Of a stretch of 50,641 nt of DNA, positions 3,651 through 26,559 are shown in pieces (the stretch's first letter is position 1; every line of letters starts with the position of its first letter). Where the stretch lies: the NCBI GenBank assembly GCA_902778855.1, contig CACYZM010000036.1, forward strand, positions 1-50,641. The letters run 5' to 3'. Made by a program: the position numbers and the translations under genes. The notes under the pieces are model-generated. The model saw only the letters and a program-made list of their open reading frames with translations, did not search any database and was not told the DNA's origin. The stretch is from an uncultured Bacteroidia bacterium (GTDB lineage Bacteria > Bacteroidota > Bacteroidia > Bacteroidales > UBA932).

Positions 3651-4924
3651 TGAAACGCTTCCTGTCTCTCGCCCTGCTGCTGGCGGTCCTGTTTTCCGCA
3701 GCAGGATGCCACGACAATTCGGCCGACCTGCGCCACCAGGCCCAGGTCGACGCGCTGATGGAGCAGCTTTCCATCCGCGAAAAAGTGGCCCAGCTTTTCG
3801 TCATCGAGATCAGCCGCGAACCGAGCGACGCCACCCGCGCCCTGCAGGATTCCCTCATCCGGGACTATGGCGTGGGCTGCCTGATTCTTATGCGCGGGCC
3901 CATCGGTCCCTTCATCGAGCGAACCAACGAACTGCAGTCTCTGGCAAAACTGCCGCTGCTGGTGGCCACCGACGCCGAATGGGGCGCCGCCATGCGCTTC
4001 GCGGAATATCTCCCCTATCCCCGCCAGCGGATCCTCGGCCGGCTCGAAGGGCGCCGGAGCGAACGGCTGCTCTACCAGATGGGCCGCAATGTGGGCCGCG
4101 AACTCCGCGACCTGAACATCTATGTGAACTACGCCCCCGTGGCTGACGTCTGTCCCGATCCGTACGACGCGTCCGACGGTCAACGCTCCTTCGACAGCGA
4201 TCCGCAACTGGTGGGCGCCTACGCCACCGCCTATATGCACGGCATGCAGGACGAAGGCATCTACGCCTGCGGCAAGCATTATCCCGGACACGGCGCCACC
4301 ACGGTGGACTCCCACTACGAGATGCCCGTCGTGCTCTACGACCGTGACTGGTTCGACTGCGTCGCACTGAAGCCGTTCCAGATGCTGATCGACAGCGGCG
4401 TCGAGATGATTATGGTGGCCCATATGAGCATTCCGTCCATCGATTCCACCGGCATTCCGATGTCGATCTCGGCCCCGTGTATGAAAGACCTGCTCTGCGG
4501 CGAACAGGGTTTCCGCGGCACGGTCATCACCGACGCCGTCGGGATGCAGGGCGTGGCAGCCGGTCGTTCGCCGCTCGAAGTCAACACGGCCGTTTATCGC
4601 GCCGGCAGCGACATGATCCTGATGCCCGACGATGTGAAGCTTTCGATCGACGCCATCGCCGATTCCGTCGAAACGGGCGTCTGGCCCCTGGAAGAACTCG
4701 ATGCCAAGGTCCGCAAGGTCCTGGAGCTCAAAGCCCGCGCCGGTTTCTTCGACGAAGGCTTCGATCCGCAGGTCCGCGACCTCGACCGCAAGATAGCCGA
4801 AGCGCGCGAGCGCGATTCGACCTTGCTGGTCCAAATCGCCCGCGCGCTCAGGAAATCGTCCAAGCCCGAAATCGTTCCCGTGGGCGGCGACGCCACCCTG
4901 GTCCTGGACAAGGCCGGGAAATAA
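3650..4924 (+). CDS. GH3 beta-N-acetylglucosaminidase-like lipoprotein (NagZ type)
   Basis: Single-domain GH3 enzyme of 424 residues. The N-terminus is a lipoprotein signal (AVLFSAAGC, Cys about residue 21), so it is membrane anchored. The KHYPGHG...DSH block near residues 207-220 is the NagZ signature: these enzymes use a His-Asp pair on this loop as general acid. The nucleophile is the Asp of VITDAVGM near residue 294. Known NagZ enzymes remove terminal GlcNAc from muropeptides or chitin-type sugars; the precise substrate is not shown here. It lacks the C-terminal beta-lactamase domain that some Bacteroidetes GH3 proteins carry. It is translationally coupled to yqeY and ends three bases before the convergent permease gene. 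Confidence 0.88.
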   Translation: MKRFLSLALLLAVLFSAAGCHDNSADLRHQAQVDALMEQLSIREKVAQLFVIEISREPSDATRALQDSLIRDYGVGCLILMRGPIGPFIERTNELQSLAKLPLLVATDAEWGAAMRFAEYLPYPRQRILGRLEGRRSERLLYQMGRNVGRELRDLNIYVNYAPVADVCPDPYDASDGQRSFDSDPQLVGAYATAYMHGMQDEGIYACGKHYPGHGATTVDSHYEMPVVLYDRDWFDCVALKPFQMLIDSGVEMIMVAHMSIPSIDSTGIPMSISAPCMKDLLCGEQGFRGTVITDAVGMQGVAAGRSPLEVNTAVYRAGSDMILMPDDVKLSIDAIADSVETGVWPLEELDAKVRKVLELKARAGFFDEGFDPQVRDLDRKIAEARERDSTLLVQIARALRKSSKPEIVPVGGDATLVLDKAGK

Positions 4925-4927
4925 ACG

Positions 4928-6172
4928 TTATTTCTGCACTTTCTGTCCGATCAGGAAGCAGATGGCGGCGACGACCATACCGTTGATGGCGGGGAAGCCC
5001 CACTTCACCAGGTTGGCGACCACCGCGCCGATCACCACTCCCGCGATGGCCCACCAGTTGACCGTCTTTTCCGGAACGGTGCCTTCGGCGTACGCCTTGC
5101 GGTTCATGAAGTAGTGGAGAATCAGAATGATGCCCACCGGCGGAAGCGTGCAGTTGAGCACGTTGAGCCAGCCGCAGAAGTTCCAGTAGAGCCACACGGC
5201 CGCCACGGTGCCGATGATGCCCGAGATGATGACCATCGTCTTCTTGGTCAGGCCGGTGATGTTCGACAGGCCGAGGCCGCCCGAATACAGGGCGTTGTCG
5301 TTGGTCGTCCAGATGTTGAGACCGAGGACCAGCAGGGCGAAATAGAAGAGGTTCAGGTTGATCATCACGTCGAAGATGTCGTTGCCGCCGGCGTAGATGC
5401 TGGACACGGCGCCGAAGAGGAACATCAGCGAGTTGCCGATGAAGAAGGCGACCACGGTGGTCCAGAGGCCCACTTTGGCACTCTTGGCGAAGCGGGTGAA
5501 GTTCGGCGTCGCGGTACCGCCCGACACGAAGCTGCCCACCACCAGGCCGGCGCCGGCGATGACGCCGAGCGTCTTGGTACCCTGGGCGAACTGCTCGATC
5601 AGACCCACTTCGCCCTGACGGACGGCCATGATCATGGCCGTGGTGCCGAGGATGGCGACCAGCGGAACGGCGATGTAGCTGATGATCGTCAGGCTTTTGA
5701 TGCCGAAGTAGGCGCTCGCGGTCATCAGGATGCCGGCGATGGCCACCAGCAGGTAACCCTGCCAGGGCATATGGTCGGGCGTCACTTCCAGGCCCAGGAT
5801 CTGCTTGGCCACCGGGATGGCGAACATCGCCAGACCCACGCCGAACCAGCCGATCTGCGTGAAACTGATCATCGCGCTGGGAAGCCAGCTGCCTTTCGTT
5901 CCGAAGCTCCGGCGGGCGAGCATGTCGAGCGACAGGCCGCTCTCGGCGCCGATGAAGCCCAGGGAGCCGGTGTAGGCGGCCAGGATGAGGCCACCGATGA
6001 GGAGGGCCCACACAAAGTCCCACCAGTCGAGGCCGGCGGCCAACTGCTGGCCCACCCACATGCTGGCGGAGAAGAAGGTGAAGCCGAGCATCACCATGAA
6101 CATGCTCAGGTTCGATTTCCGTCCGGCACGGTCCACCGCGCGGTCGGTGTAGTCAACGTCAGTCTTTTTCAT
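4928..6172 (-). CDS. codB: Cytosine/purine permease, NCS1 (CodB) family
   Basis: Inner-membrane transporter of 414 residues with about twelve hydrophobic segments. CodB-like features include the N-terminal SMFMVMLGFTFFSASMWVGQQ segment, FIGAESGLSLDMLARRSFG and IWTTNDNALYSGGLGLSNI. The family imports cytosine or other nucleobases with cations. The start overlaps the end of the phosphoribosyltransferase-like gene by 14 bases, so both are on one mRNA and a base-salvage pairing is likely. Substrate is inferred from family only. Confidence 0.88.
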   Translation of the reverse strand: MKKTDVDYTDRAVDRAGRKSNLSMFMVMLGFTFFSASMWVGQQLAAGLDWWDFVWALLIGGLILAAYTGSLGFIGAESGLSLDMLARRSFGTKGSWLPSAMISFTQIGWFGVGLAMFAIPVAKQILGLEVTPDHMPWQGYLLVAIAGILMTASAYFGIKSLTIISYIAVPLVAILGTTAMIMAVRQGEVGLIEQFAQGTKTLGVIAGAGLVVGSFVSGGTATPNFTRFAKSAKVGLWTTVVAFFIGNSLMFLFGAVSSIYAGGNDIFDVMINLNLFYFALLVLGLNIWTTNDNALYSGGLGLSNITGLTKKTMVIISGIIGTVAAVWLYWNFCGWLNVLNCTLPPVGIILILHYFMNRKAYAEGTVPEKTVNWWAIAGVVIGAVVANLVKWGFPAINGMVVAAICFLIGQKVQK

Positions 6173-7740: not shown

Positions 7741-9527
7741 TGCTGCAAGTCCTTCCCCAGAGCCTTTCGAACCTGATCGCCGCAGGCGAGGTGGTCTCCC
7801 GCCCCGCATCGGTGGTCAAGGAGTTGATGGAAAACGCCGTCGACGCCGGCGCCAAAAGCATCCTGGTGACCGTCACCGACGCCGGCAAGACCCTCATCCA
7901 GGTCATCGACGACGGCTGCGGCATGACGCCCGACGAAGCCGTGCTCTGCTTCGCCCGCCACGCCACCAGCAAGATCGCCGCGGCGGAAGACCTCCAGCAC
8001 ATCCTAACCTACGGTTTCCGCGGCGAGGCCCTCGCCTCAATCGCCGCCGTGGCCGAGGTTACGCTCAAGACCCGCCGCCCCGAAGACGAAACCGGCACGC
8101 TCGTCGAAACGAGCCCCGTCAAACCGGCCGCCGCACAGCCCGTCGCCGCACCTTCCGGCAGCAACTTCGCCATCCGCAACCTCTTTTACAACGTACCCGC
8201 CCGGCGCAAGTTCCTCAAGTCGGACAACGCCGAGCTCCGGGCCATCATCCAGGAATTCCAGCGCGTCGCCCTCATCCGGCCGGAGATCGCTTTCAAGCTT
8301 ACCTCCAACGGCAAGGAACTCCACCATCTGCGGCCCGCCGCTTCACACAAGAAGCGCATTCTGGACATTTTCGGCATGAACCTCGCCCAGGAACTGGTGG
8401 AGGTGAAGGTCGACACGAGCCTGGTGCGGATCCGCGGCTACATCGGCAACCCCGAAGACGCCCGCAAGAGCACCGGCAACCAGTTCCTCTTCGTCAACAA
8501 CCGCTATTTCCGGTCGCCCTTCCTCCACAAGGCCGTCTGCAAGCCCTACGAGAAGCTGGTGCCCGAAGACTATACGCCCGCCTATTTCCTGTTCCTGGAG
8601 ACGGAACCCGACCGCGTGGACGTCAACATCCATCCCGCCAAGACCGAGGTGAAGTTCGAGGACGAAGGCCTGATCTTCGAAATCCTCACGGCCGCCGTGC
8701 GGGAGGCCCTGGGAAAGAACGACTTTACCCCGAGCATCGATTTCGATATGCGCGGCGCGCCCGACATTCCGGTTTTCGGGCCGTCCGACAAGGGATCCGG
8801 CGGATCCGGTTCCTGGCACCGCCCGCCCCGCATCGATTACGACCCGCTCTTCAACCCGTTCGATGAAACGCCCGGCTGGACGCCCGGTCTCCAGACGGAG
8901 CCCCGCCCGGCCGCCGATCCGGCGCCTGCGCCGACGCCCGGCCTGCTCTTCGACGAGCCGGCCGCACCCGCAGCTTCCGTACTCGTGCTCCAGCGGCGCT
9001 ATCTCATCACGCCCGTCAAATCGGGCATGATGGTCATCGACATCCGGCGGGCCCGGCAGCGCATCTTCTACGAACGCTATCTGGAGAAACTCGCGGAGAA
9101 GCAGCCGGTCCGGCAGCAGACGCTCTTCCCCGTGACGCTCACCCTCAACGCCGAAGACTATCTGACCCTGCTCGAGCAGCCCGACCTGACCGCCTCGCTG
9201 GGTTTCGACATCCAGGAATTCGGCGGAAACACCGTGGTCGTGAACGCACTTCCGGAAGGGTACCCGGTCGATGAAGCGCAGGTCCGCCAGGCCATCGACG
9301 GGCTGATCGCCGCCCTGCGGGACGACACCTCCCTGGAAGACTCCCGCCACCTGATGGCTGCAAAAATGGCAGAATCCGCCGCCGCAGGCGACCCGGGCAG
9401 CCTCCGCGGCCCCGAGGCACAATTGTTGGTGGACCAGCTGTTTGCCTGCCGGGAGCCCAACCTCACGCCCGACGGGCGCAAATGCCTGACCATCCTTACT
9501 TTTGAAGATTTGGAGAAGAAATTATGA
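7740..9527 (+). CDS. mutL: DNA mismatch repair protein MutL
   Basis: Mismatch repair ATPase of 595 residues that couples MutS recognition to strand removal. The N-terminal GHKL ATPase motifs are intact: ELMENAVDAGA near residue 36, DDGCGM near 59 and YGFRGEALASI near 93. A Pro-rich linker spans about 340-410, followed by the C-terminal dimerisation domain ending in ACREPNLTPDGR. The position where endonuclease-type MutL proteins carry DQHAxxE reads DIRRARQR, so nuclease activity is doubtful. The gene sits between overlapping partners (TGATG before, ATGA after), indicating one polycistronic message. Confidence 0.96.
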   Translation: MLQVLPQSLSNLIAAGEVVSRPASVVKELMENAVDAGAKSILVTVTDAGKTLIQVIDDGCGMTPDEAVLCFARHATSKIAAAEDLQHILTYGFRGEALASIAAVAEVTLKTRRPEDETGTLVETSPVKPAAAQPVAAPSGSNFAIRNLFYNVPARRKFLKSDNAELRAIIQEFQRVALIRPEIAFKLTSNGKELHHLRPAASHKKRILDIFGMNLAQELVEVKVDTSLVRIRGYIGNPEDARKSTGNQFLFVNNRYFRSPFLHKAVCKPYEKLVPEDYTPAYFLFLETEPDRVDVNIHPAKTEVKFEDEGLIFEILTAAVREALGKNDFTPSIDFDMRGAPDIPVFGPSDKGSGGSGSWHRPPRIDYDPLFNPFDETPGWTPGLQTEPRPAADPAPAPTPGLLFDEPAAPAASVLVLQRRYLITPVKSGMMVIDIRRARQRIFYERYLEKLAEKQPVRQQTLFPVTLTLNAEDYLTLLEQPDLTASLGFDIQEFGGNTVVVNALPEGYPVDEAQVRQAIDGLIAALRDDTSLEDSRHLMAAKMAESAAAGDPGSLRGPEAQLLVDQLFACREPNLTPDGRKCLTILTFEDLEKKL

Positions 9528-10126
9528 GAATGCTCCCTCCGGCAGTCAAGAATCTGCTGATCGTCAATATCATCGTTTTCCTGGGTACGCTCCTCATCGG
9601 GGATCCGATGTACCAGTATTTCGCCCTGTTCCCCGTCGGTTCGCACTATTTCCGCTGGTGGCAGTTCGTGACCCATATGTTCATGCACGGCAATTTCGCC
9701 CACATCTTCTTCAATATGTGGTCGCTCATCGTCTTCGGTCCCGTCCTGGAGCGGATGTGGGGCAGCAAGAAATTCCTGCTCTACTACTTCGTGTGCGGAC
9801 TCGGCGCGGCCGCCTGCCACGAGCTGGTGCTTTCCATGCAGCCGCTGTCCAACATTCCGACCGTGGGCGCCTCGGGCGCCATCTACGGTCTGCTGCTGGG
9901 TTTCGGCATGCTCTATCCCAACTACACGCTGACCCTGGTGTTCCCGCCCGTTTCGCTCAAGGCCAAATGGTTCGTCATCATCTTCGCCGCCATTGAAATG
10001 CTGACCGGCATCCTGGGGACGAGCGACGGCGTGGCCCACTTCGCCCACCTGGGCGGCATGCTCTTCGGCCTGATCCTGATTCTCTTCTGGAAGAAGAAAG
10101 GGCAAATGTATTCGGAATGGGAATGA
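9524..10126 (+). CDS. Rhomboid family intramembrane serine protease
   Basis: Six-helix membrane protein of 200 residues. The catalytic Ser is in VGASGAIYG near residue 117 and the catalytic His in VAHFAHLGG near residue 176; the FMHGNFAHIFFNMW segment of helix 2 is also typical. Rhomboids cut transmembrane segments of membrane proteins; the substrate here is unknown. Its start overlaps the mutL stop (ATGA) and its stop overlaps the next start (ATGA), so it is within the mutL operon. Confidence 0.92.
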   Translation: MRMLPPAVKNLLIVNIIVFLGTLLIGDPMYQYFALFPVGSHYFRWWQFVTHMFMHGNFAHIFFNMWSLIVFGPVLERMWGSKKFLLYYFVCGLGAAACHELVLSMQPLSNIPTVGASGAIYGLLLGFGMLYPNYTLTLVFPPVSLKAKWFVIIFAAIEMLTGILGTSDGVAHFAHLGGMLFGLILILFWKKKGQMYSEWE

Positions 10127-16694: not shown

Positions 16695-19598
16695 CTACCG
16701 GACAATCACCGGAGGAGCCGTCGGGACGAAGGGCCGGCGGGCGCCGTTGGCGGCAGCCTTCATCGGCGGCCGGACGGTGTTGACCGAGGCCGAGCGGTTC
16801 ACAGCGTCGTAGGTGAGGAAGGCGTCGAAGCTGACGCTTTCGCCGCTGAGTTCCATAATCCGTTTGTAGATGGCCCAGCGCGAAGGAGCGTTGAAGAAAG
16901 GCGCGTCTTCGTTCATCATACTGTTCGCGGAAGGGCGCCAGACGCCGGTCGCATAGAGCGCACCGCCCTCGTAAATGCCGACTTCGTCCTTGTAGCGCGT
17001 GTCAGAGAGGAACGAGTTCCAGCGGATCTTTGACGGGTCGTTCGTGAAATCGACATTGGCGTACCAGCCGTAGGCATTGTAGAGGCGGTTGTATTCATCA
17101 ACGATTGCTGCCGGCACGGCGCTTTCGTAGGAAGTGTACTCATCGGCCAGGAAAGCAAAGCCGTGGCCGCCAGCCTCGTGCTGGAGAATGGCGCTGAATG
17201 CCTCCGCATGGTTGCCGAAGCTGGAGAAGAAGGCGACGCCGGACTGCAGCGATTCGGACATATAGGCCGTACCGGCATTCCGCCGCGTATTGACCATCAC
17301 GGGAATCAGCAGATTCTTCGTGTCGGAGATGCCCGGGACCTTCAGGGCGTATTCATAGCACTTGTCCAGATTGCCGTTGACGGCCGATCCGTTGCCGAAG
17401 GAGACGCCGAAGGCGGTAGTATAACCCTCACCGATCCGGTCGTGCTTCGAAACGGCTTTCACCGCATAGACGTTAAAGCGGTTGCGGAAGGTCTTGTAAG
17501 GCTCGATGGCGAAGAATTCCTCCATTGCCTGTTTCATCAGGGTCTCATACCTGCCGCCGCTGACCATATCCTTGTCGGAATAGCCATCGCCCAGGAAAAC
17601 GATGTTGATGCCTTTGCCCACAGAGGCTTTCTGCAAGGTCAGCACCTGTCCGTCCATCGAGAAATCGGTGGATTCATAGACCGGGGCGTCGGCCGGGCCC
17701 AGTACGGTCTCCAGGAATGGAATCAGGTCGTCAAAGGCAGACAGGTCACCTTCGCGCGTTCCAAAACGGTGGCGGACCGGATCCGGAGTATTGATGACCG
17801 AACTGAAGAGGATGTTGCCGTTCTTGTCATAGACTTCCGCGGTGGGGACAGAATGGCAGATAAACATATAACCGTCGTAGGGCTCGTAGAAGAAATTATA
17901 CCATTGGTCATATCCTTTCTCGTAGATGGTTTTTTCTTCCAGGGCCTTTTCGCTGTCGCTGAATTCGTGATTCTCTGGATGCCAGACCGTCGCGATGATT
18001 TCCAGGCCGTCCTGCCGATAGTTTTCATAGTATTCTTTCAAGGAAGGCATCAGGACAGCAGAATAAGGGCACCAGGTTGCCCAGTTGAGATAGACGGTAT
18101 ATTCGTTCTGGCTGACCACGTCGGCGAAAGTGAATGTCTTCCCGTCAAAACCGGTTATCGTGCCATACGGCCAGCATCCTGGAATGTCGATATCGCTGAT
18201 GTCGAAACCGTAGCCTTCTTCCTGTTGCAGAATGCGGGTAAGCCGCCATGCCAACTGCTCTCCTTTTGCCTGGAGAATGGTTGCGGGAATCTCTCCGGAC
18301 AGGCAGTTCATCCGCAGACTCGCTCCCTCCAGGTCCAGCAGCCTGGCCCAAGAGGCGGGAATTGTCCCGGTGAAGCCATTGTCTAAGATCGAGAAAGAGC
18401 GCAGTTTCTCGGAACTACCCAGGCTCTCCGGGAGCGGGCCGCCCATTTGTTTGTTGTAGAACACGAGCACGTAGTCCAACTCCTTCATTCCGTCGAACAA
18501 GTCCGGAAGGGAAGTCATCGATGTGTTCACCAGGTTAAGTTCTCTCAAATGGACAAGATTGCGGAAGGATTCAGGAAGCGTTCCGCTTACACCGGGTTCC
18601 TGACTTACAGAGAATCTAGTCAGGTTGACAAGCTCTCCGATACTTTCCGGGAATGCTCCCTTGAGACCGAATTCGGAGAAGGACAACAAGCTTAATTCCT
18701 CGTTTACGAACGAAAGGCCTTTCCATTCTCTCAACGGGGCGTCTGTTCCCCAACCGTTGGCTCCCTTCCAGTGCGGGCCGTCCATTTTCTGGTAGATTTC
18801 CATCAGGATGCGGCGGATTTTGGAGCGCTGCCGGAAGGTAATCGTCTGCGTTTCGAAAGTACCCTTTGCGCTTTGGATCATGATCTCGCCCGAACGGATA
18901 TCGTCCAGGTTCGCGGCAACCGAGAAGAGCTGCGGTGGGTGCGACGGTGACGGTATATTCCGTATTGTATTGGACGGGGATTTCGATCTGGCCGCCTTCT
19001 TCAGGAACTTCGACCAGCGAAGTGTCCACGATCAGCGTGGCTTTTTCTTCCTGCTCGAAGGTCAAAGTGATCGGAGCGACCTTGCCGCCCTTGTCCTTTA
19101 CCGTCACCTTGCCGGTACGGGTCTCGGGGTTCTTGTTCTCGGCGAACGTGAATTGCAGCTTGCCGCTCGAAAGCGCCTTCGTGCCGTTGAAAGTAATCCA
19201 GGAACTGGCGGCGCTTTCCACCTCCACGGAGTAGTCGGTGTTGTATTGGATGTCAACCTCAAAGGTTCCGCCTTCGGCCGGAATCTTCGTTACGGACCCC
19301 ACCGAAATCGTGGATTTGGCGTCCTGCTTTACCGCAACGGAGGCCGACAGCCCTTCGCTTTGGAAGGTGATGCTGCCGGTAGTCTCGGATGCCGTTCCGG
19401 CCGGCGCGGCCGTCACGGTGACGGTGCCTTCGCCTTCGCCGGAAAGCGGGGAGACGGTCAGGCCAGTCCCGCTGTCTGGGATCCGCCGTCCTGGTTAAAT
19501 GACAGACTGGTCGGGCTGACATTCAGGAACGGCTCGGGGTGGCAGGCCTGCATCAGCAGGAGTGCCAGACAGGAAAGAAGGCTGAGAAATCGTTTCAT
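16695..19598 (-). pseudogene. BACON-LRR-thioredoxin-like-M64 metalloprotease lipoprotein (paralog 2), broken frame
   Basis: Large secreted protease. ATG 19598 opens a lipoprotein signal (LLLMQAC) and the first strand of a BACON domain, then meets a stop near 19455 because the frame changes near 19474. BACON repeats continue in a second frame to about 18935, where it changes back near VTVAPTA / LFSVAANL. From there the frame is open to the stop at 16695: leucine-rich repeats (about 18750-18280), a thioredoxin-like domain with WATWCPYS (one Cys only), and the M64 domain with HEAGGHGFAFLADEY near 17150-17185. The catalytic region is intact. Relatives include IgA-cleaving metalloproteases; the target here is unknown. 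It lies 29 bases after the paralog stop. Confidence 0.83.
19054..19474 (-). repeat. Near-identical BACON block shared with 22292-22712
   Basis: This 421-base block aligns without gaps to 22292-22712 (offset 3238) with only some 15-18 visible differences. It ends abruptly at the base where the frame of both genes breaks. Confidence 0.8.
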
Positions 19599-19627: not shown

Positions 19628-22600
19628 TTACTTGTCGACGATCACCGGCGGAGCCGTCGGGACGAAGGGCCGGCGGGCGCCGTTGGCGGCGGCCTTCATC
19701 GGCGGCCGGGCGGTGTTGACCGAGGCCGAGCGGTTCACGGCATCGTAGGTCAGGAACGAGTCGAAGTTGTAGCTTTCTCCGCTGCGCTTCAGGATCTGCT
19801 GGTAGATCGCCCAGCGGGACGGCGCGTTGAAGTACTCGAGGTTCTCGCGCATCATGCTGTTGACCGTCGGACGGTAGGCGCCCTTGGCGTAAAGGGCGCC
19901 GCCTTCGTGGATGCCGACTTCGTTCTTGTAACGGTCGTCGGCGAGGAAGGCGCTCCAGCGGATCTTCTGCGGATCGTTCGTGAAGTCCACGTTGGCGAAC
20001 CAGCCGTACTTGTCGTACACTTCGTTGTAGTAGGCGATGTGTTCGGCCGGGGCCGTACCCTCGTACTGGCTGTACTCGTCGGCCAGGAAGGCGAAGCCGT
20101 GGCCGCCCGCCTCGTGGCGGAGCGTGGAGCCGAAGACCTCGGGGTCGTTGTCCATCGACGAGAAGTAGGCGACGCTCGTCTGGCGGTCGGCGAACAGGAA
20201 GGACGTACCGGCATGGCGGCGCGAGTTGACGGCGACGACAACCAGCAGATTGTCGCGCGACGTGATGCCCGGCACCTTCATCGCGTATTCGTAACACTTC
20301 TCGTGGTTGCCTTCCACGTAAGATCCGTTGCCGAAATAGGTGGAGAGGGCGGTTTCACAACCCTCGCCGATCCGGGCGTTCTTCGAGACCGCCTTCACGG
20401 CATACACGTTGAAGCGGTTGCGGAACGACTTGTACGGTTCGATGGCGAAGAACTCTTCCATCGACTGCTTCATGACGGTTTCGTAGAGGCCGCCTTTGCC
20501 CATATCGCGGTCGGTGTAGGCGTCGCCCAGGAAGACGATGTCGATGCCCTTGCCGACACTGGCCTTCTGCAGCGTCATCACTTCGCCGTCCTTCGAGTAG
20601 TCGGTGGATTCGTAGGTGTCCGGAATTTCCGCAGGCCCCAGCAGGGTCTCCAGGAAGGGAATCAGGTCGGTGGAAGCCGTCTTGCCGAACCGCTTCCTGA
20701 CCGGATCCGGATAAGTGCTCCAGGAACTGAACAGGACATTGCCTTGCTGGTCGTAAACTTCGGCCACAGGGACGGACATAAAGTATGCTTCCGCATATTT
20801 GGTAAAGTAGTAGTTGTACCACTGGTCGTAGCCTTTGTCGATGCATTCCTGTTTCTGCCTTTCGTAATCGCGGAAGAGACCGAAGTCATCACCGACCTGG
20901 ATGGTGGCAATAACTTCCAGGCCGTCCTGCCTGTAGCGGTCATAGTACCGCTTGAGGGCGGGCATCAGCTCCTTGGAGAACGGGCACCAGAGCGCCCAGA
21001 AGATATAGACCGTGTATTTGTTCTGGCTGACCACTTCCGGGATGGAGAAGGCAGTGCCGTCCAGGTTTTCCAGCAACCGGTCTTCGAACCAGTAGTCGCA
21101 GCCAGGAATATCCAAGTCGGAAATGTCGAAGCCATAGCCTGTCTGTTGCCACAGATTGCTGTGTTTGACAAAGGCTTTGACTTCGTCCGCATTGCGGAAC
21201 AGATGGGAAATCTTTCCGCTCAGGCAGTTGTTGTACAGTTCTGCGATCCCGATATAGGGCGCCCAGGTGTCGGGAATCTCTCCGGAAAACTTACATTCTC
21301 CGAACAGCAAGTGATTCAGGACAGGAGAATTGATATGCCTCGGCAAGGGACCGGCCATGGACCGGTTGACAGCGATATGGATATCCGTCAACTGTTTCAT
21401 ATCTCCGAAAACATCGGGAATCGAGGTCATGCCGGTGCTTTGGATGGAAATCCGCCTGAGGCCGGTCAGTTTGCGGAACGAATCCGGCAGCGTTCCCGTC
21501 AGGCCGGGTTCTTCCATAATATGCATTTCGCCAAGCAGATCGCCCAATTCTCCAATGCATTCCGGAATCTCCCGGTTGATTCCGAAATCATAGGACTGGA
21601 ATCCCATGGTTTGCTTTTCGTAATTGAAATAGAAGCCCGGCCAGTTCTCGCCCGGAACCCAGGGATAATTCTTCCATTCCCGGGCGCCCCAGGCTTCATA
21701 GACCCGTTCCATCATCCGGCGGGCTTTCCACTCCCGGCTCTGCGCTTCCTGCACAAAGGTCAGCGTCACCGGCTCAGCCTTGCCGGCCTTGTCCTTCACC
21801 GTCGCATGGCCGATGCGCTGTTCGCCTTCGTTGGCCTCGAACACAAACTGCAGGTAGTCATAGCTGAGTGCTTTCGTCTCGACGAACCTGGCCCACGATT
21901 GGGCGTCGGGATCGATCTCGACGGTGTATTCGGTGTTGTATTCAATAGTCACTTCCAATAAGCCGCCTCTTTCCGGAATCTGGAATTCATCGTCCTGTAA
22001 GTTCCGGATGATTTTCCTTTCTTCCTGTGTGAAGGTCAGGGTAATCGGATCGACTTTTCCGTTCCTGTCTTTCACTTTGACCTTTCCGGTGCGCGGATCG
22101 GGATCCTCGTTGGGCGCAAAGTTGAATTCCAGTTTTCCGCTCTTGAGCGCCTTGGTCTGGACAAAGGTGATCCAGGGGTATGTGACTTCGACGATGAATT
22201 CGGTATTGTACTGGATATCCACCTCGAAGGTTCCGCCTTCGGCCGGAATCAGCATCGTGTCGCCGACCTGAATGACCTTTTTCTCTTCCTGTTCGAAGGT
22301 CAAAGTAATCGGAGCGACCTTGCCGCCCTTGTCCTTCACCGTCACTTTGCCGGTACGGGTCTCGGGGTTCTTATTCTCGGCGAACGTGAATTGCAGCTTG
22401 CCGCTCGAAAGCGCCTTCGTGCCGTTGAAGGTGATCCAGGAACTGGCGGCGCTTTCCACCTCCACGGAGTAGTCGGTGTTGTAATAGATATCTACCTCAA
22501 AGGTTCCGCCTTCGGCCGGAATCTTCGTCACGGATCCCACCGAAATCGTGGATTTGGCTTCCTGCTTCACCGCGACGGAGGCCGACAGGCCTTCGCTCTG

Positions 22601-22752
22601 GAAGGTGATGCTACCGGTAGTCTCGGATGCCGTTCCGGCCGGCGCGGCCGTCACGGTGACGGTGCCTTCGCCTTCGCCGGAAAGCGGGGAGACGGTCAGG
22701 CCAGTCCCGCTGGGAGTGCCATCAGGCTGAGCGTGGCTAGAAAACGTCGCAT
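19628..22752 (-). CDS. BACON-LRR-thioredoxin-like-M64 metalloprotease (paralog 1), 5' end disrupted
   Basis: Multi-domain secreted protease. ATG 22752 starts a signal-like MRRFLATLSLMALP but runs into a stop 17 codons later; the main frame begins at about 22712, and its first usable start codon is a GTG at 22654 inside a BACON repeat, giving 1008 residues. So the end of the signal, the lipobox Cys and the first BACON half appear lost. Order after that: BACON repeats to about 21740 (three full copies), LRR region with PDSFRKLTGLRRISIQSTGM, thioredoxin-like domain with WALWCPFS (single Cys), then M64 with RHEAGGHGFAFLADEY near 20085-20125 and GGALYAKGAYRPTVNSMMR. First gene of the two-protease unit. 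Without a signal it could not be exported as written. Confidence 0.83.
22292..22712 (-). repeat. Near-identical BACON block shared with 19054-19474
   Basis: Partner of the block at 19054-19474, same orientation, encoding the start of the BACON array. Its high identity next to diverged LRR parts suggests recent duplication or gene conversion. Confidence 0.8.
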
Positions 22753-22867: not shown

Positions 22868-24088
22868 ATGAAAAAGTTAATTCTACTTGCCTTTATGATC
22901 AGTTTCCCTTTTTTCGGATCCTGCCTTGCGCAGAACAACGAGCGCAAGCGGATCGAGTTGGATGAAGCGCAACGGACCTATGTGGAGGCCGGCAACGATT
23001 TCGCCTTCCGTTTCCTGAAACAGATCGACGCGGGTGAACCGGGCAACTGGTTCGTGTCGCCGGTCAGCCTCCAGTACCTGCTCGGCCTGGTCCTCGACGG
23101 CGCCGAAGGCGCTACCGCCGACGAGATCTGCCAGACCCTCGGTTATCCGGCCGGCCAGTCGGAGGCGGTCGACGCCTACTGCCGCAAGATGCTTTCCGAA
23201 CTTCCCAATCTTGACAAGAAGACCAAGCTGACGCTGGCCAACGCCATCTTCTTCAACGACAAGATGACTATCAAGGTTCCCTATAAGAAGCGCGTGGAAA
23301 AATTCTACGATGCCGAGGTGGAGAGCCTCGACTTCTACCAGAAACGGGGTACGCTCAGGACCATCAACGGCTGGTGCAACAGACAAACGAACGGCCTGAT
23401 CCCCGCGGTGCTGGACGATGTCTCGCCCGATATGTTCGCCTACCTGCTCAACGCCCTCTACTTCAAAGGGACCTGGATGTATCCGTTCAACAAGCGCTAT
23501 ACGCAGGACCGGACCTTCACCCTGGAATCAGGTCAGAAGAAAGAAATACCGATGATGATGAAGGAGCGCAAGTACGGTTATGGTGAAAACGACGTCTTCC
23601 AGCGCGTAGTCCTTCCCTACGGCAACGGCTCCTACTCGATGATCGTGCTGCTTCCGAAAAAAGGACACACGGTCGCCGACGTGATCGCCAGTGTCAACGG
23701 GGAAAACTGGAAGGACATCCATTCCCGCTGGGGCTACGGCACGCTCATCAATGTCTGGCTGCCGCCTTTCGAGTCGAAGTACCACATCCAGCTCAACGAC
23801 ATCCTCTGCGATATGGGTATGCCGCGTTCATTCGGCCCGGCGGCCCAGTTCAAGCCGATGTCGGACGACGCCCTCTGGCTCAGCTTCGTGCAGCAGGACG
23901 CCGTGATCAAGGTCGATGAAGAAGGTACCGAAGCCGCCGCCATCACCAGTGCCGGCATGCTGGGCGCCACGGCAGTTCCCGAGCCGCCGCGCGTGATCGA
24001 CTTCCACTGCGACCACCCGTTCCTCTATCTGATTACCGAGAACAGTACGGGCACGATCCTCTTTGCCGGCAAGTTTTCCGGAAATTAG
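22868..24088 (+). CDS. Secreted serpin (serine/cysteine protease inhibitor)
   Basis: Serpin of 406 residues with a signal sequence ending FFGSC or LAQ, so either a lipoprotein or a secreted protein. Core serpin motifs are FVSPVSLQYLLGLVLDGAEG, LANAIFFND, LLNALYFKGTW and HPFLYLI near the end. The reactive-loop hinge EEGTEAAAIT (residues 351-360) is of the inhibitory type with small side chains. Counting 17 residues from the hinge puts the cut bond at about Ala367-Thr368, which would suit elastase-like enzymes, but the loop is a few residues longer than in alpha-1-antitrypsin, so this is uncertain. It lies divergent to two secreted metalloproteases and may protect the cell from host or neighbour proteases. 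Confidence 0.93.
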   Translation: MKKLILLAFMISFPFFGSCLAQNNERKRIELDEAQRTYVEAGNDFAFRFLKQIDAGEPGNWFVSPVSLQYLLGLVLDGAEGATADEICQTLGYPAGQSEAVDAYCRKMLSELPNLDKKTKLTLANAIFFNDKMTIKVPYKKRVEKFYDAEVESLDFYQKRGTLRTINGWCNRQTNGLIPAVLDDVSPDMFAYLLNALYFKGTWMYPFNKRYTQDRTFTLESGQKKEIPMMMKERKYGYGENDVFQRVVLPYGNGSYSMIVLLPKKGHTVADVIASVNGENWKDIHSRWGYGTLINVWLPPFESKYHIQLNDILCDMGMPRSFGPAAQFKPMSDDALWLSFVQQDAVIKVDEEGTEAAAITSAGMLGATAVPEPPRVIDFHCDHPFLYLITENSTGTILFAGKFSGN

Positions 24089-26073
24089 AGCAGCAGGCTT
24101 CCGATCCGGAAGACCAGGAACGCCACCACCCAGGCGAGCACCAGGGAATGGACGACCGAGAATGACGCCCATTTCCAACCCACTTCCTTCCGCAGCGTCG
24201 AGATCGTCGCAACGCACGGGAAGTACAACAAAACGAACAGCATAAATGCCAGGGCAACCGCCCGGTTCATTCCCTCCCCCTCGGTCATCGCCTGGGCGAG
24301 GGATTCGCTGTCTTCGGTGTGGTAAAGAATGCCCATCGTGCTGACAATCGCCTCTTTGGCCGGGAGACCGGTGAGGAGGCAGACATTCATCTTCCAGTCA
24401 AAGCCCAGCGGCTTCATCAAAGGCTCCATGCCTTTGCCGATGTCGCAGAGATAGGATTCTTCCTTATACTTGCCGTCCTGGGTCCGTTCCCGGGGAAAAT
24501 ACTCCAGCGCCCAGATAATGACGGAAGCGGCCAGAATGACTGTCGTGATCTTGTGCAGATAGTCCGAAGTCCGCTCCCAGACATGGTTCCAGGTGCTCCG
24601 CAACGTGGGTTTGCGGAAGGCCGGAAGTTCCGACACGTAGTCGTCGGCCTCTTTCCGGAACCACTTGGTCCGTTTCATTACGAAAGCGAAGAGGATCGAC
24701 AGCAGGATTCCCGCCAGATAGAGTCCGATCATCACCAGCGATTTGTAACTGACGAAGAAGGCGCCGACAAACAGCATATACACGGGGATCCTGGCCGAAC
24801 ACGACATGAACGGGATCATCAGCATCGTCAGCGTCCGGTCCTTCGGATTGTCAATGGACTTGGCGGCCATAATGGCCGGCACGTTGCAGCCGAAACCGAG
24901 CAGCATCGGCACGAAAGACTTGCCGTGAAGGCCGATCCGGTGCATGATCTTGTCCATCAGGAAGGCCGCACGGGCCATATAGCCGGTATCTTCCAACAAG
25001 GAAAGCAGAATGAAGAGGATGAAGATGTTCGGCACGAAGGAAATGACTGCGCCGCAGCCTTGCACGATTCCGTCGACCAGCATGCTGGACAGCCAGCCTG
25101 ACGGCAGAACGTCCGTAAGCCAGGAGCACAGGAGGTCCACGCCCTCCTCAATCCATTTCTGCGGCCAGGCACCCAGGGCAAAGGTGGCTTCGAAAACCAG
25201 ACAAAGCACTACGAGCAACAGCGGAAGACCGATCAGGCGATTGGTCAGCACGGCATCGATCTTCTGGAGGAGCGTGTGGTCCGAATTGTCGGAACTGTGA
25301 TGAAGGGTCTCGACCAGGGCGCCGTGGACATAACCGTGACGGGCCTTCCGGATCAGGGATTCCGGGCTCTCGCCGAGCTGCCTGGCCAGCGTCTCGGACT
25401 CCGTACGCGCCGCTTCGACGATTCGCGAAGCCAGGGGGTCGCCTTCCAGCGCTGGGGTAATATACTGGGGATCCTCCAACAGGCGTACGGCCAGATAGCG
25501 GTCGTGATACGTGTCCGAAAGACCCGGTGAATCGGCAATCAGGGCGGTAATGCGGTCGATGGCCTTGTCCACGTCCTGGCCGTAGGGCACGTGAACGTGT
25601 TTCTTGGCCGGCTGGCGCCAGGTTTCGACGATCAGGGAAAGCAGCCGGCTGAAACTTTCTTCGGACGCGTCGAGGAGCGTTGCCGGGAAGCCCATCATTT
25701 CGCCGAGGGTTTTGTAATCCAGGGAGTGCCCGGTAGCCAGGAGACGGTCGTAGCCGGAGAAGGCCAGCACGGCCCGGGAGTCCATGTCGATGAGTCGGGA
25801 GGTGAGCCTGAGGTTGTTTTCCAGAGACATCGAATCGATGATGTCCAGCACTACGGAAGGCTTGTTGGAGAGGATCTTCCGGCCCACGTGGACATGCTCC
25901 CCGCAATAGTTCACGAAACAGATCACATAGTCCCCGAACTCGACGGTGAAATGCGAACGACCTGCGAAGGACAGCATCCCGCCATTGGGCTCGTGGCCGA
26001 TGACATCGACCAGGATACGCGGCCTTTTTCCCGCAGCCAGCGCACATTCGCTGCAATTGAAATCACATTTCAT
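24085..26073 (-). CDS. feoB: FeoB-like ferrous iron permease with degenerate GTPase domain
   Basis: Membrane protein of 662 residues. The permease half (about residues 260-662) is typical FeoB: EDTGYMARAAFLMDK, GFGCNVPAIMA, IPFMSCSARIPVY, GLPAKEAIVSTMG and LLYFPCVATI, with both gate repeats. The N-terminal half still aligns to the FeoB G domain and helical insert, but the P-loop reads GHEPNGG (26-32) instead of GxPNxGKT, the DxPG site reads NYCG (55-58), and the NxxD base site reads SGYD (106-109). GTP binding is therefore not expected. A CX3CX2C motif (Cys 3, 7, 10) opens the protein. No feoA domain is attached or nearby. The stop overlaps the convergent serpin stop by three bases. Confidence 0.88.
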   Translation of the reverse strand: MKCDFNCSECALAAGKRPRILVDVIGHEPNGGMLSFAGRSHFTVEFGDYVICFVNYCGEHVHVGRKILSNKPSVVLDIIDSMSLENNLRLTSRLIDMDSRAVLAFSGYDRLLATGHSLDYKTLGEMMGFPATLLDASEESFSRLLSLIVETWRQPAKKHVHVPYGQDVDKAIDRITALIADSPGLSDTYHDRYLAVRLLEDPQYITPALEGDPLASRIVEAARTESETLARQLGESPESLIRKARHGYVHGALVETLHHSSDNSDHTLLQKIDAVLTNRLIGLPLLLVVLCLVFEATFALGAWPQKWIEEGVDLLCSWLTDVLPSGWLSSMLVDGIVQGCGAVISFVPNIFILFILLSLLEDTGYMARAAFLMDKIMHRIGLHGKSFVPMLLGFGCNVPAIMAAKSIDNPKDRTLTMLMIPFMSCSARIPVYMLFVGAFFVSYKSLVMIGLYLAGILLSILFAFVMKRTKWFRKEADDYVSELPAFRKPTLRSTWNHVWERTSDYLHKITTVILAASVIIWALEYFPRERTQDGKYKEESYLCDIGKGMEPLMKPLGFDWKMNVCLLTGLPAKEAIVSTMGILYHTEDSESLAQAMTEGEGMNRAVALAFMLFVLLYFPCVATISTLRKEVGWKWASFSVVHSLVLAWVVAFLVFRIGSLLL

Positions 26074-26145: not shown

Positions 26146-26559
26146 ATGACGGAAATCATCATCAACGGAACGCAGGATCTGCCGCGTGCGGCGCGGGCTT
26201 TCCTCGACCACAAGGGCTCGGCGAACGTGGTGGCCTTCTACGGATCGATGGGCGCGGGCAAGACCACGTTCATCACGGCGCTCTGCGAAGCGCTGGGCGT
26301 GCGCGACGTCGTGTGCAGCCCCACGTTCACCATCGTCAACGAATACCGCGACGGGGCGGGTAACCCCGTGTACCACTTCGACTTCTACCGCATCAACCGG
26401 CTCTCCGAGGCCCTGGACATCGGGCTGTTCGAGTACTTCGACAGCGGGGCGCTCTGCCTGGTGGAATGGCCCGAAATGATCGAGGAACTGCTGCCGGAAG
26501 ACGCGCTCAAGGTGCAGATCCTGGTGGAAGACGCCGAAACGAGAACCTTGTTATTCTGA
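26146..26559 (+). CDS. tsaE: tRNA t6A biosynthesis ATPase TsaE
   Basis: Small P-loop ATPase of 137 residues that supports TsaB-TsaD in forming t6A37 on ANN-decoding tRNAs. The Walker A GSMGAGKTT is at about residues 30-38, with SPTFTIVNEY after it, HFDFYRI near 82 and the FDSGALCLVEWPE motif near 103, all typical of the family. First gene of a plus-strand unit; the next gene begins eight bases after its stop. Confidence 0.95.
   Translation: MTEIIINGTQDLPRAARAFLDHKGSANVVAFYGSMGAGKTTFITALCEALGVRDVVCSPTFTIVNEYRDGAGNPVYHFDFYRINRLSEALDIGLFEYFDSGALCLVEWPEMIEELLPEDALKVQILVEDAETRTLLF

Follow-up and report, generated by a model that had tools for sequence, protein, structure and literature searches.

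Can a FeoB permease work without its GTPase? The question is raised by a 50,641-nucleotide stretch of DNA (the window) from an uncultured Bacteroidia bacterium (Bacteroidales, UBA932; assembly GCA_902778855.1, contig CACYZM010000036.1, positions 1 to 50,641), in which a feoB gene at 24085..26073 on the reverse strand encodes a FeoB homologue that has lost its GTP-binding motifs. The role of the slow FeoB GTPase has long been debated, with active transport, gating and sensing as the candidates. Passages of PMC4847171 describe Pseudomonas aeruginosa FeoB as a trimer and propose a GTP-gated channel, with hydrolysis too slow for active transport. In the excerpts at hand, PMC8980893, PMC10353542 and PMC4847171 regard the GTPase as needed or essential. 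The first-pass annotation of the window proposed that the protein moves metal by a different trigger or serves as partner to a second FeoB. Our results best support the first of these ideas: the window protein is probably a nucleotide-independent, gradient-driven permease for Fe2+ or a related divalent metal.

The window feoB gene has lost its GTP-binding motifs

We found that the gene is a single open frame with an ATG start, encoding 662 aa plus the stop. In Pfam searches, the protein matched Gate (3.6e-49, in two stretches) and FeoB_C (4.2e-14) in the permease (residues 266-661; 24091..25278), and FeoB_Cyto (7.5e-14) in the helical domain at residues 164-257 (25303..25584). It passed the NCBIfam FeoB equivalog TIGR00437 with 418 bits (cut-off 315.65). 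Of the 156 positions of the FeoB_N profile, only 71-146 were matched; the half containing G1-G3 was not.

We compared the G-motif columns in an alignment of 100 sequences (A1). In the 46 rows bearing a G domain, the G1, G3 and G4 columns mostly read GNPNCGKT, DLPG and NMYD. The window protein reads GHEPNGGM at G1 (the P-loop; residues 26-33, 25975..25998), SGYD at G4 (residues 106-109, 25747..25758) and NYCG at G3 (residues 55-58, 25900..25911), the last a soft placement because the surrounding stretch is divergent. The patterns by which we recognized a G domain, GxxxxGKS/T (G1), DxPG (G3) and NxxD (G4), are therefore all missing. Y108 of the G4 equivalent is shared by 48 of 48 rows without an intact G domain (G-less rows) that have letters at that column. 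These readings agree with those of the first-pass annotation.

The gene has undergone motif loss, as first proposed, and not a frameshift. The frame is unbroken, separately assembled orthologues have lost the identical motifs, and the gene is under purifying selection (below). Orthologues with the same G1/G3/G4 loss, which had been suggested as a check, do exist: the motifs are intact in none of eight from the same genus (60-94% identity). Between the feoB start codon and the start of the divergent tsaE (26146..26559, forward strand) there are only 72 bp, so no missing G1 segment or FeoA fits upstream.

An assembly or frameshift artefact is barely credible. The relatives are nearly all metagenome-assembled genomes (MAGs), and look-alikes do occur, at contig edges (L153, L166, L169, L171, L173, L176) or through frameshifts (L170, L175). 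However, the same architecture is found across hosts and projects, with intact frames and under purifying selection. In addition, L153, L166, L169, L170, L171 and L175 keep PFVMELP, a permease sequence expected to persist in broken copies of intact genes and not kept by G-less genes; L176 reads PFIMEMP, and L173, another FeoB type, is without the motif. For the window gene, recurrence in separate MAGs together with purifying selection refutes the artefact.

The gene is under purifying selection and the pore residues are conserved

We estimated the ratio of nonsynonymous to synonymous substitution rates (dN/dS) by the Nei-Gojobori method, using our own script, for 10 sequences of the window clade (45 pairs). 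The ratio was 0.22 for residues 1-17, 0.20 for residues 18-63 (the first half of the G-domain remnant, which has no P-loop; 25885..26022), 0.077 for residues 64-152 (the second half, still conserved; 25618..25884), 0.084 for residues 153-257 and 0.058 for the permease. Values of 0.06-0.22 in every part exclude a pseudogene and indicate a living gene.

The conserved permease residues have been retained. Cys396 (GFGC motif, 24886..24888), Cys425 (SCSAR motif, 24799..24801), Cys620 (YFPC motif, 24214..24216), Lys573 and Glu574 show no variation among the 105 rows compared (52/52 intact and 53/53 G-less). Glu361 is missing in 4 of the 53 G-less rows. This conservation bears on whether the protein might be a non-transporting relic or a metal sensor, its permease fold and N-terminal cysteine motif being used for signalling. 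The cysteine motif fits such a role, as does the loss of catalytic motifs, which is seen in pseudoenzymes. However, with invariant pore cysteines, a permease dN/dS of 0.058 and no other FeoB in the genome, we consider a relic or sensor very unlikely.

Loss of the G domain is graded and recurrent

The set of proteins related to the window protein comes from Bacteroidales MAGs, many of them sampled from the gut of ruminants and horses. Goat, buffalo, yak, deer (red deer), reindeer and horse appear as sample sources in the GenBank titles, along with the taxa Candidatus Cryptobacteroides, Limimorpha, Colimorpha and Paludibacteraceae. Before building trees we set aside L004, L111, L144, L154, L153 and L208 as contig-edge, partial or frameshifted sequences, and dropped near-duplicate, truncated or long-branched rows (22 before a 106-row tree; 39 plus 6 before a tree with the loop described below masked). 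L166, L169, L170, L171, L173, L175 and L176 entered neither the trees nor the loop tally. Midpoint rooting was distorted by L146 (branch length 10), and an outgroup root was used instead.

In the outgroup-rooted tree of 106 permease domains, 57 rows with a decayed or missing G domain formed one clade (support 96/88; the decay clade) with a core of 53 rows (98/99). Its sister was a set of congeneric intact FeoABs, which are FeoA-FeoB fusions (91/96, long branch). When the loop columns were masked (105 rows), the intact congeneric FeoABs fell between a His-rich group and the core (98/90), and support for the core was 90/68. There is thus fair support for the core as one group.

Within the core we found successive steps of deletion. 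The P-loop GKS is kept and DxPG is gone in L070, L071, L075, L076, L078, L096 and L216. The P-loop is degenerate in L072-L074, L080, L058-L060, L062, L064 and L065. Every G motif is gone, with an N-terminal CX3CX2C present, in the window protein and others. The first half of the G domain is gone in L079, L082, L084, L086 and L089-L092, and the whole cytosolic part in L105. The cytosolic part has also gone from L085, L097, L102, L109 and L113, which retain the cysteine motif. Outside the core, it is likewise missing from the His-rich group (L036, L038 and kin). The first-pass annotation had only one stage of this graded, recurrent loss in view.

Permease-only FeoBs were also found in further lineages, around G168 and G164 (below): in the genera g80, g210 and g214 of a single family, where intact relatives also occur (members of g214 among them), and in g76 of another family, whose neighbour genus g217 is intact. 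These proteins are ~380-470 aa long, and FeoB_Cyto was not matched in permease-only relatives in Pfam searches. On the loop-masked tree, the fewest state changes that explain the distribution number six, and five independent pairs lie on supported branches. Because g80 and g214 are separated only by forks of 92/85 and less, three or four of the further permease-only lineages count as independent.

Complete G-less genes were uncommon in even draws of genomes. FeoB was found in 109 of 119 Bacteroidales genomes (E<=1e-70), and the only complete G-less genes, the window aside, were in G164 and G168. This count leaves out contig edges (G042, G138, G147, G173), a frameshift (G052), and the unread G037 and G172 (partial matches covering the G domain) and second gene of G170 (match from position 34). 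In Bacteroidota, FeoB was found in 131 of 158 genomes (E<=1e-60), with no further complete G-less gene among the matches listed; G259 was frameshifted and G297 at a contig edge.

Two other observations concern relatives of these proteins. The permease-only FeoBs L036, L038, L147 and L150-L152 have a His-rich N-terminus (MAKRRHDHTRGIHNMGG), a stretch that may stand in for the cysteine motif as a metal binder; the gene beside the His-rich proteins reads like EF-Tu. In the FeoABs L142 and L143 (G006, G021), only 23 residues separate GNQDSGKT from DLPG, where about 46 is usual. Switch I/G2 looks as though it had been deleted, which may be an early stage of the decay described here. L142 and L143 nonetheless keep the PFVMELPPYR loop.

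A permease loop is altered in FeoBs without a G domain

The permease had been described as textbook FeoB. This holds for Gate, FeoB_C and the pore cysteines, but not for one loop, PFVMELPPYR, which is replaced. Among the conserved permease columns of A1, residue 478, which opens this loop, is Asp in 54 of 54 G-less rows, against Pro in 45 of the 46 rows with a G domain. Apart from it, only residue 576, a conservative Ile/Val difference, passed the same filter. The window version of the loop is DYVSELPAFR (residues 478-487, 24613..24642). We found the motif PFV[ML]ExP in 81 of 83 FeoBs with a G domain and in none of 82 without one. L111 and L144 were counted as intact in this tally, L153, L154 and L208 were kept apart, and L004, L177, L202 and L213-L215 were dropped beforehand as duplicate or partial. 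L167 and L168, the same genes as L202 and L177, stand outside the 82 and are also without the motif.

We found two residues whose loss is common to all G-less lineages. The comparison covered 86 permease columns with at least 90% conservation among intact FeoBs, and only F479 and M481 were lost in 6/6 lineages (permutation P(max>=6)=0.0004, treating conserved columns, as do all our loop statistics, as equally free to change, a simplification). With the decay rows counted once, they remained the only columns lost in 5/5 (P for at least one, 0.0013), and with g80 and g214 merged as well, the only ones in 4/4 (P 0.0099 for at least one, 0.00002 for two). V480, E482 and F371 were lost in 5/6 lineages; the decay core, including the window protein, retains all three. 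In every lineage the losses clustered among the loop's 10 columns (hypergeometric P 0.0002-0.014): intact rows deviated at no more than one of the ten (45 rows at 0, 7 at 1), G-less rows at 2-7. An independent-pairs sign test gave the same direction in 4.9 of 5 pairs on average (p 0.0625).

No other inter-helix segment is as long or as rich in K/R (8 K/R, 4 D/E), and by the positive-inside rule the loop is probably cytosolic. Its residues were replaced differently in each lineage. Since F and M are the sole near-invariant columns lost in every G-less lineage, we suggest that the PFVMELPPYR loop probably couples the GTPase to the permease and relays the state of the G domain.

The altered loop might instead mean that the metal has changed, the protein importing Mn2+, Zn2+, Ni2+ or another divalent ion while iron enters otherwise. 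The portion of PMC11920956 consulted regards this segment of Escherichia coli FeoB as a putative Fe(II) site, and the loop contains the permease change that is clearest across the clade, the gain of Asp478; the absence of FeoA would also fit. However, the same portion reports that the loop peptide binds Fe(II) weakly in vitro, Cys396, Cys425, Cys620, K573 and E574 are unaltered, and this is the sole FeoB found in a genome where Nramp was not found (other iron importers were not searched for). The lineage-specific residues are also more readily explained by release from a partner than by a newly formed metal site, and we think a change of metal unlikely. As a metal site the loop was ranked lower, since each lineage alters it differently.

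A more divergent FeoB type, represented by L172 and L173, has LIMPMPDYKTP at the loop position. In L172 (643 aa) the G domain is intact, and a small separate gene lies upstream. Coupling of a G domain in this type would need a different sequence.

Most genomes with a decay-clade FeoB show neither a second FeoB nor a detached G domain

The genome from which the window comes (98% complete) contains one FeoB permease, so that the suggested check for a second, intact feoB turned up none. FeoB_N matched 11 places in this genome. One is the window gene, seven are in six named proteins, Der (two places), Era, MnmE, Obg, YchF and HydF, and the remaining three are weak and unnamed. Of 50 genomes carrying a decay-clade FeoB, 47 showed neither a second FeoB nor a detached FeoB G domain (E<=1e-20), although completeness was not given for the 50 and absence in any single MAG is soft. 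In a FeoB_N search of 28 genomes at the same threshold, 25 were silent (including the contig-edge cases G023, G063 and G382), and the only matches came from the two intact controls (G425, G374) and from G062, whose second FeoB is intact. No tested genome having only a G-less FeoB contained a detached FeoB G domain. We reject a second FeoB or detached G domain as partner for the window's own genome and for these 47 relatives, and the earlier suggestion of a partner to a second FeoB is not supported.

These results also argue against a persisting dependence on nucleotide, whether the nucleotide is bound at a non-canonical site of the remnant, by a GTPase acting in trans or by an intact FeoB in a hetero-oligomer. 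Three of the 50 genomes (G065, G067, G081) do hold an intact FeoB as well, and in one of them (L044) a G-less FeoB (3998-5989) and an intact FeoAB (7850-9964) lie on the same strand less than 2 kb apart. The G domain is also conserved in its second half (dN/dS 0.077), and a structure model retains an NFeoB-like shell (below). However, 47 of the 50 genomes lack both a second FeoB and a detached G domain, some relatives are without the entire cytosolic domain, and the window protein is without a P-loop. We regard continued nucleotide dependence as quite unlikely.

Loss of the G domain was accompanied by absence of FeoA. PF04023 (FeoA) had no match in the window's own genome, G000, at E<=0.001. 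Among 40 genomes of the genus, FeoA was found in 21/21 with only intact FeoB and in 0/13 with only a G-less FeoB; the remaining genomes were those with both types (2/2), contig-edge cases (0/2) and genomes without FeoB (0/2). In these 40 genomes Nramp was above the cut-off in none, and other iron importers were not searched for.

G024, which like G062 belongs to genus g1, contains a FeoAB fragment at a contig edge plus a second tsaE, and because of the latter may be a strain mixture. No FeoB permease was detected in G005 (76% complete) or G025 (80%), reflecting incompleteness or total loss.

Structure models

We modelled the window protein with AlphaFold2 on A1 (pLDDT 87.2, pTM 0.63). The first half of the remnant forms three strands in a beta-alpha shell, and the first strand is not directly followed by a helix, although this is the position of the P-loop helix in G domains. 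The best Protein Data Bank (PDB) fold matches were NFeoB structures (target-normalised TM 0.63-0.79 across the 50 listed).

A model of the permease-only L211 (380 aa; pLDDT 88.3, pTM 0.84), as distinct from the window protein, had as its top 12 PDB matches only concentrative nucleoside transporters (CNTs; probability 0.97-1.00), which are Na+/H+ symporters. Any likeness of L211 to CNTs such as vcCNT and CNTnw would be one of fold; the substrate differs, and no significant sequence relation was seen here.

An N-terminal cysteine motif marks one subclade

The first-pass annotation had reported a CX3CX2C motif at Cys 3, 7 and 10, which could be confirmed both in the sequence (CDFNCSEC, residues 3-10, 26044..26067) and in a subclade of the relatives. 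The motif is present in 36 of 54 G-less rows in A1 and in 33 of 34 members of one subclade (100/99 in the 106-row tree). It was found in 0/24 other decay-clade rows and 0/83 intact FeoBs. The simplest account is a single origin, with five sequences (L085, L097, L102, L109, L113) keeping the motif after the G domain was gone. This survival of complete G-domain deletion makes metal binding by the motif plausible, and a redox or iron sensor is a fair guess.

A short cysteine motif is also a feature of the FeoB-associated Cys-rich protein (PF12669) and FeoC. Passages of PMC8749426 describe a similar motif in the FeoB-associated protein, and according to part of PMC10710835, FeoB turnover is controlled by an Fe-S cluster of FeoC that is sensitive to oxygen. 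The CX3CX2CX8C of L085 fits the Cx3-5Cx2-3Cx6-8C quoted for PF12669. In contrast, the motif described here is fused at the FeoB N-terminus, and the window protein has only three of its cysteines. PF12669 did not match the window protein (E<=0.001), nor L085, L097, L109 or L058 (E<=1).

The locus and its neighbours

In the stretches fetched from congeners, a tsaE - namZ - GH18 - ROK neighbourhood contains either a G-less FeoB or an intact FeoAB; tsaE serves here as a synteny marker only. The G-less form occurs in the window and in L010-L015 (L039-L041 and L045-L047 represent genes already in that set), and the intact form in L132, L133, L134, L137, L139, L140 and L144, with an edge fragment in L155. 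Between the window and the FeoAB-bearing loci, flanking proteins are 62-95% identical, in contrast to about 30-37% for the FeoBs.

The nearest intact relatives are the Bacteroidales FeoAB fusions (Bacteroides fragilis type, as described in excerpts of PMC8980893), some of which share the tsaE-namZ-GH18 locus; they have FeoA and G motifs, and the window protein has neither. Compared with canonical FeoB (TIGR00437; E. coli, Vibrio cholerae, P. aeruginosa), the window protein shares Gate, FeoB_C, the conserved cysteines and FeoB_Cyto, but is without nucleotide-binding motifs and FeoA, has an altered loop and carries the extra N-terminal CX3CX2C.

Downstream, a bacterial serpin gene (Pfam 3.5e-98; 22868-24088, forward strand) is convergent with feoB, the two open reading frames (ORFs) overlapping by 4 bases. 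A BACON-domain ORF (18616-19416, reverse strand) copies almost exactly the start of the adjacent BACON / IgA-peptidase-M64 protein (19628-22654, reverse strand) and then diverges, by eye a partial tandem duplication.

Discussion

We suggest that the window protein is a working permease descended from an ancestor of FeoAB type, with FeoA and the GTPase lost along the way. The permease, which may have a nucleoside-transporter-like fold, would need no nucleotide to move metal; its energy would come from the metal gradient and the membrane potential, or from a coupled ion. FeoB permeases are probably gradient-driven transporters or channels with the GTPase as regulator, and these lineages would have removed the regulator. 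Because relatives have deleted the cytosolic part, the remnant would be a structural cap at most. At the cytosolic mouth, the N-terminal CX3CX2C is probably an iron-binding or redox-sensing element, and with no GTPase to heed, the coupling loop PFVMELPPYR could have diverged to DYVSELPAFR. The sequences themselves show the motif loss, a sole FeoB with no detached G domain found, selection, a conserved permease, repeated loss of the whole domain and the joint loss of the loop; from these we infer transport itself, the metal, the energy source, the coupling role of the loop and the function of the cysteines.

Several points weigh against this proposal. We know of no transport, metal or nucleotide assay of G-less proteins. 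The match of L211 to CNTs was weak (E 0.0074-0.13, none below 0.001; query TM 0.39-0.53). FeoA is fused to FeoB in intact congeners, so its loss is largely one event with the N-terminal loss and not independent of it. The loop motif is not universal in intact FeoBs: L026 (QFVMELPPYR) and L146 (LIMELPPYH) are the exceptions in our tally, and outside it the intact L174 has the motif and the intact L172 does not. F371, lost in 5/6 lineages, sits outside the loop, and the sign test had only five supported pairs, which agree in direction under most pairings and for which p 0.0625 is the minimum. The two trees, with their long branches, disagree on whether the His-rich group and the core share one G-domain loss. 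Finally, the E. coli FeoB G-domain point mutants D123N and T37A fail to restore Fe2+ uptake according to excerpts of PMC8980893, which indicates that ordinary FeoB needs its GTPase. G-less forms must then be altered, and the loop is the visible alteration.

Weighing these points, we hold to a nucleotide-independent permease for the window. A broader reading, which we offer tentatively and rate at somewhat less than even, is that the FeoB permease is basically ion- or potential-driven and CNT-like, with the GTPase a dispensable regulator acting through the PFVMELPPYR loop. In Bacteroidales this regulator would have been unplugged repeatedly, at least four and probably five or six times, with the loop released each time, leaving GTP-independent iron importers down to 380 aa; one clade would later have added an N-terminal cysteine sensor.

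Among the titles and abstract openings listed for open-access PMC papers, we found no earlier description of G-domain-less or permease-only FeoBs, although an earlier account elsewhere is possible. TIGR00437 accepts GTPase-free proteins as FeoB, including the permease-only L211 (343 bits) and L085 (380 bits), and G-less genes are probably annotated as ordinary FeoB. If our reading is true, natural GTPase-free FeoBs would show that the permease alone transports. They would also provide minimal proteins of ~380 aa for structure determination and liposome assays, and would point to a specific loop as the element that couples the GTPase to the permease.

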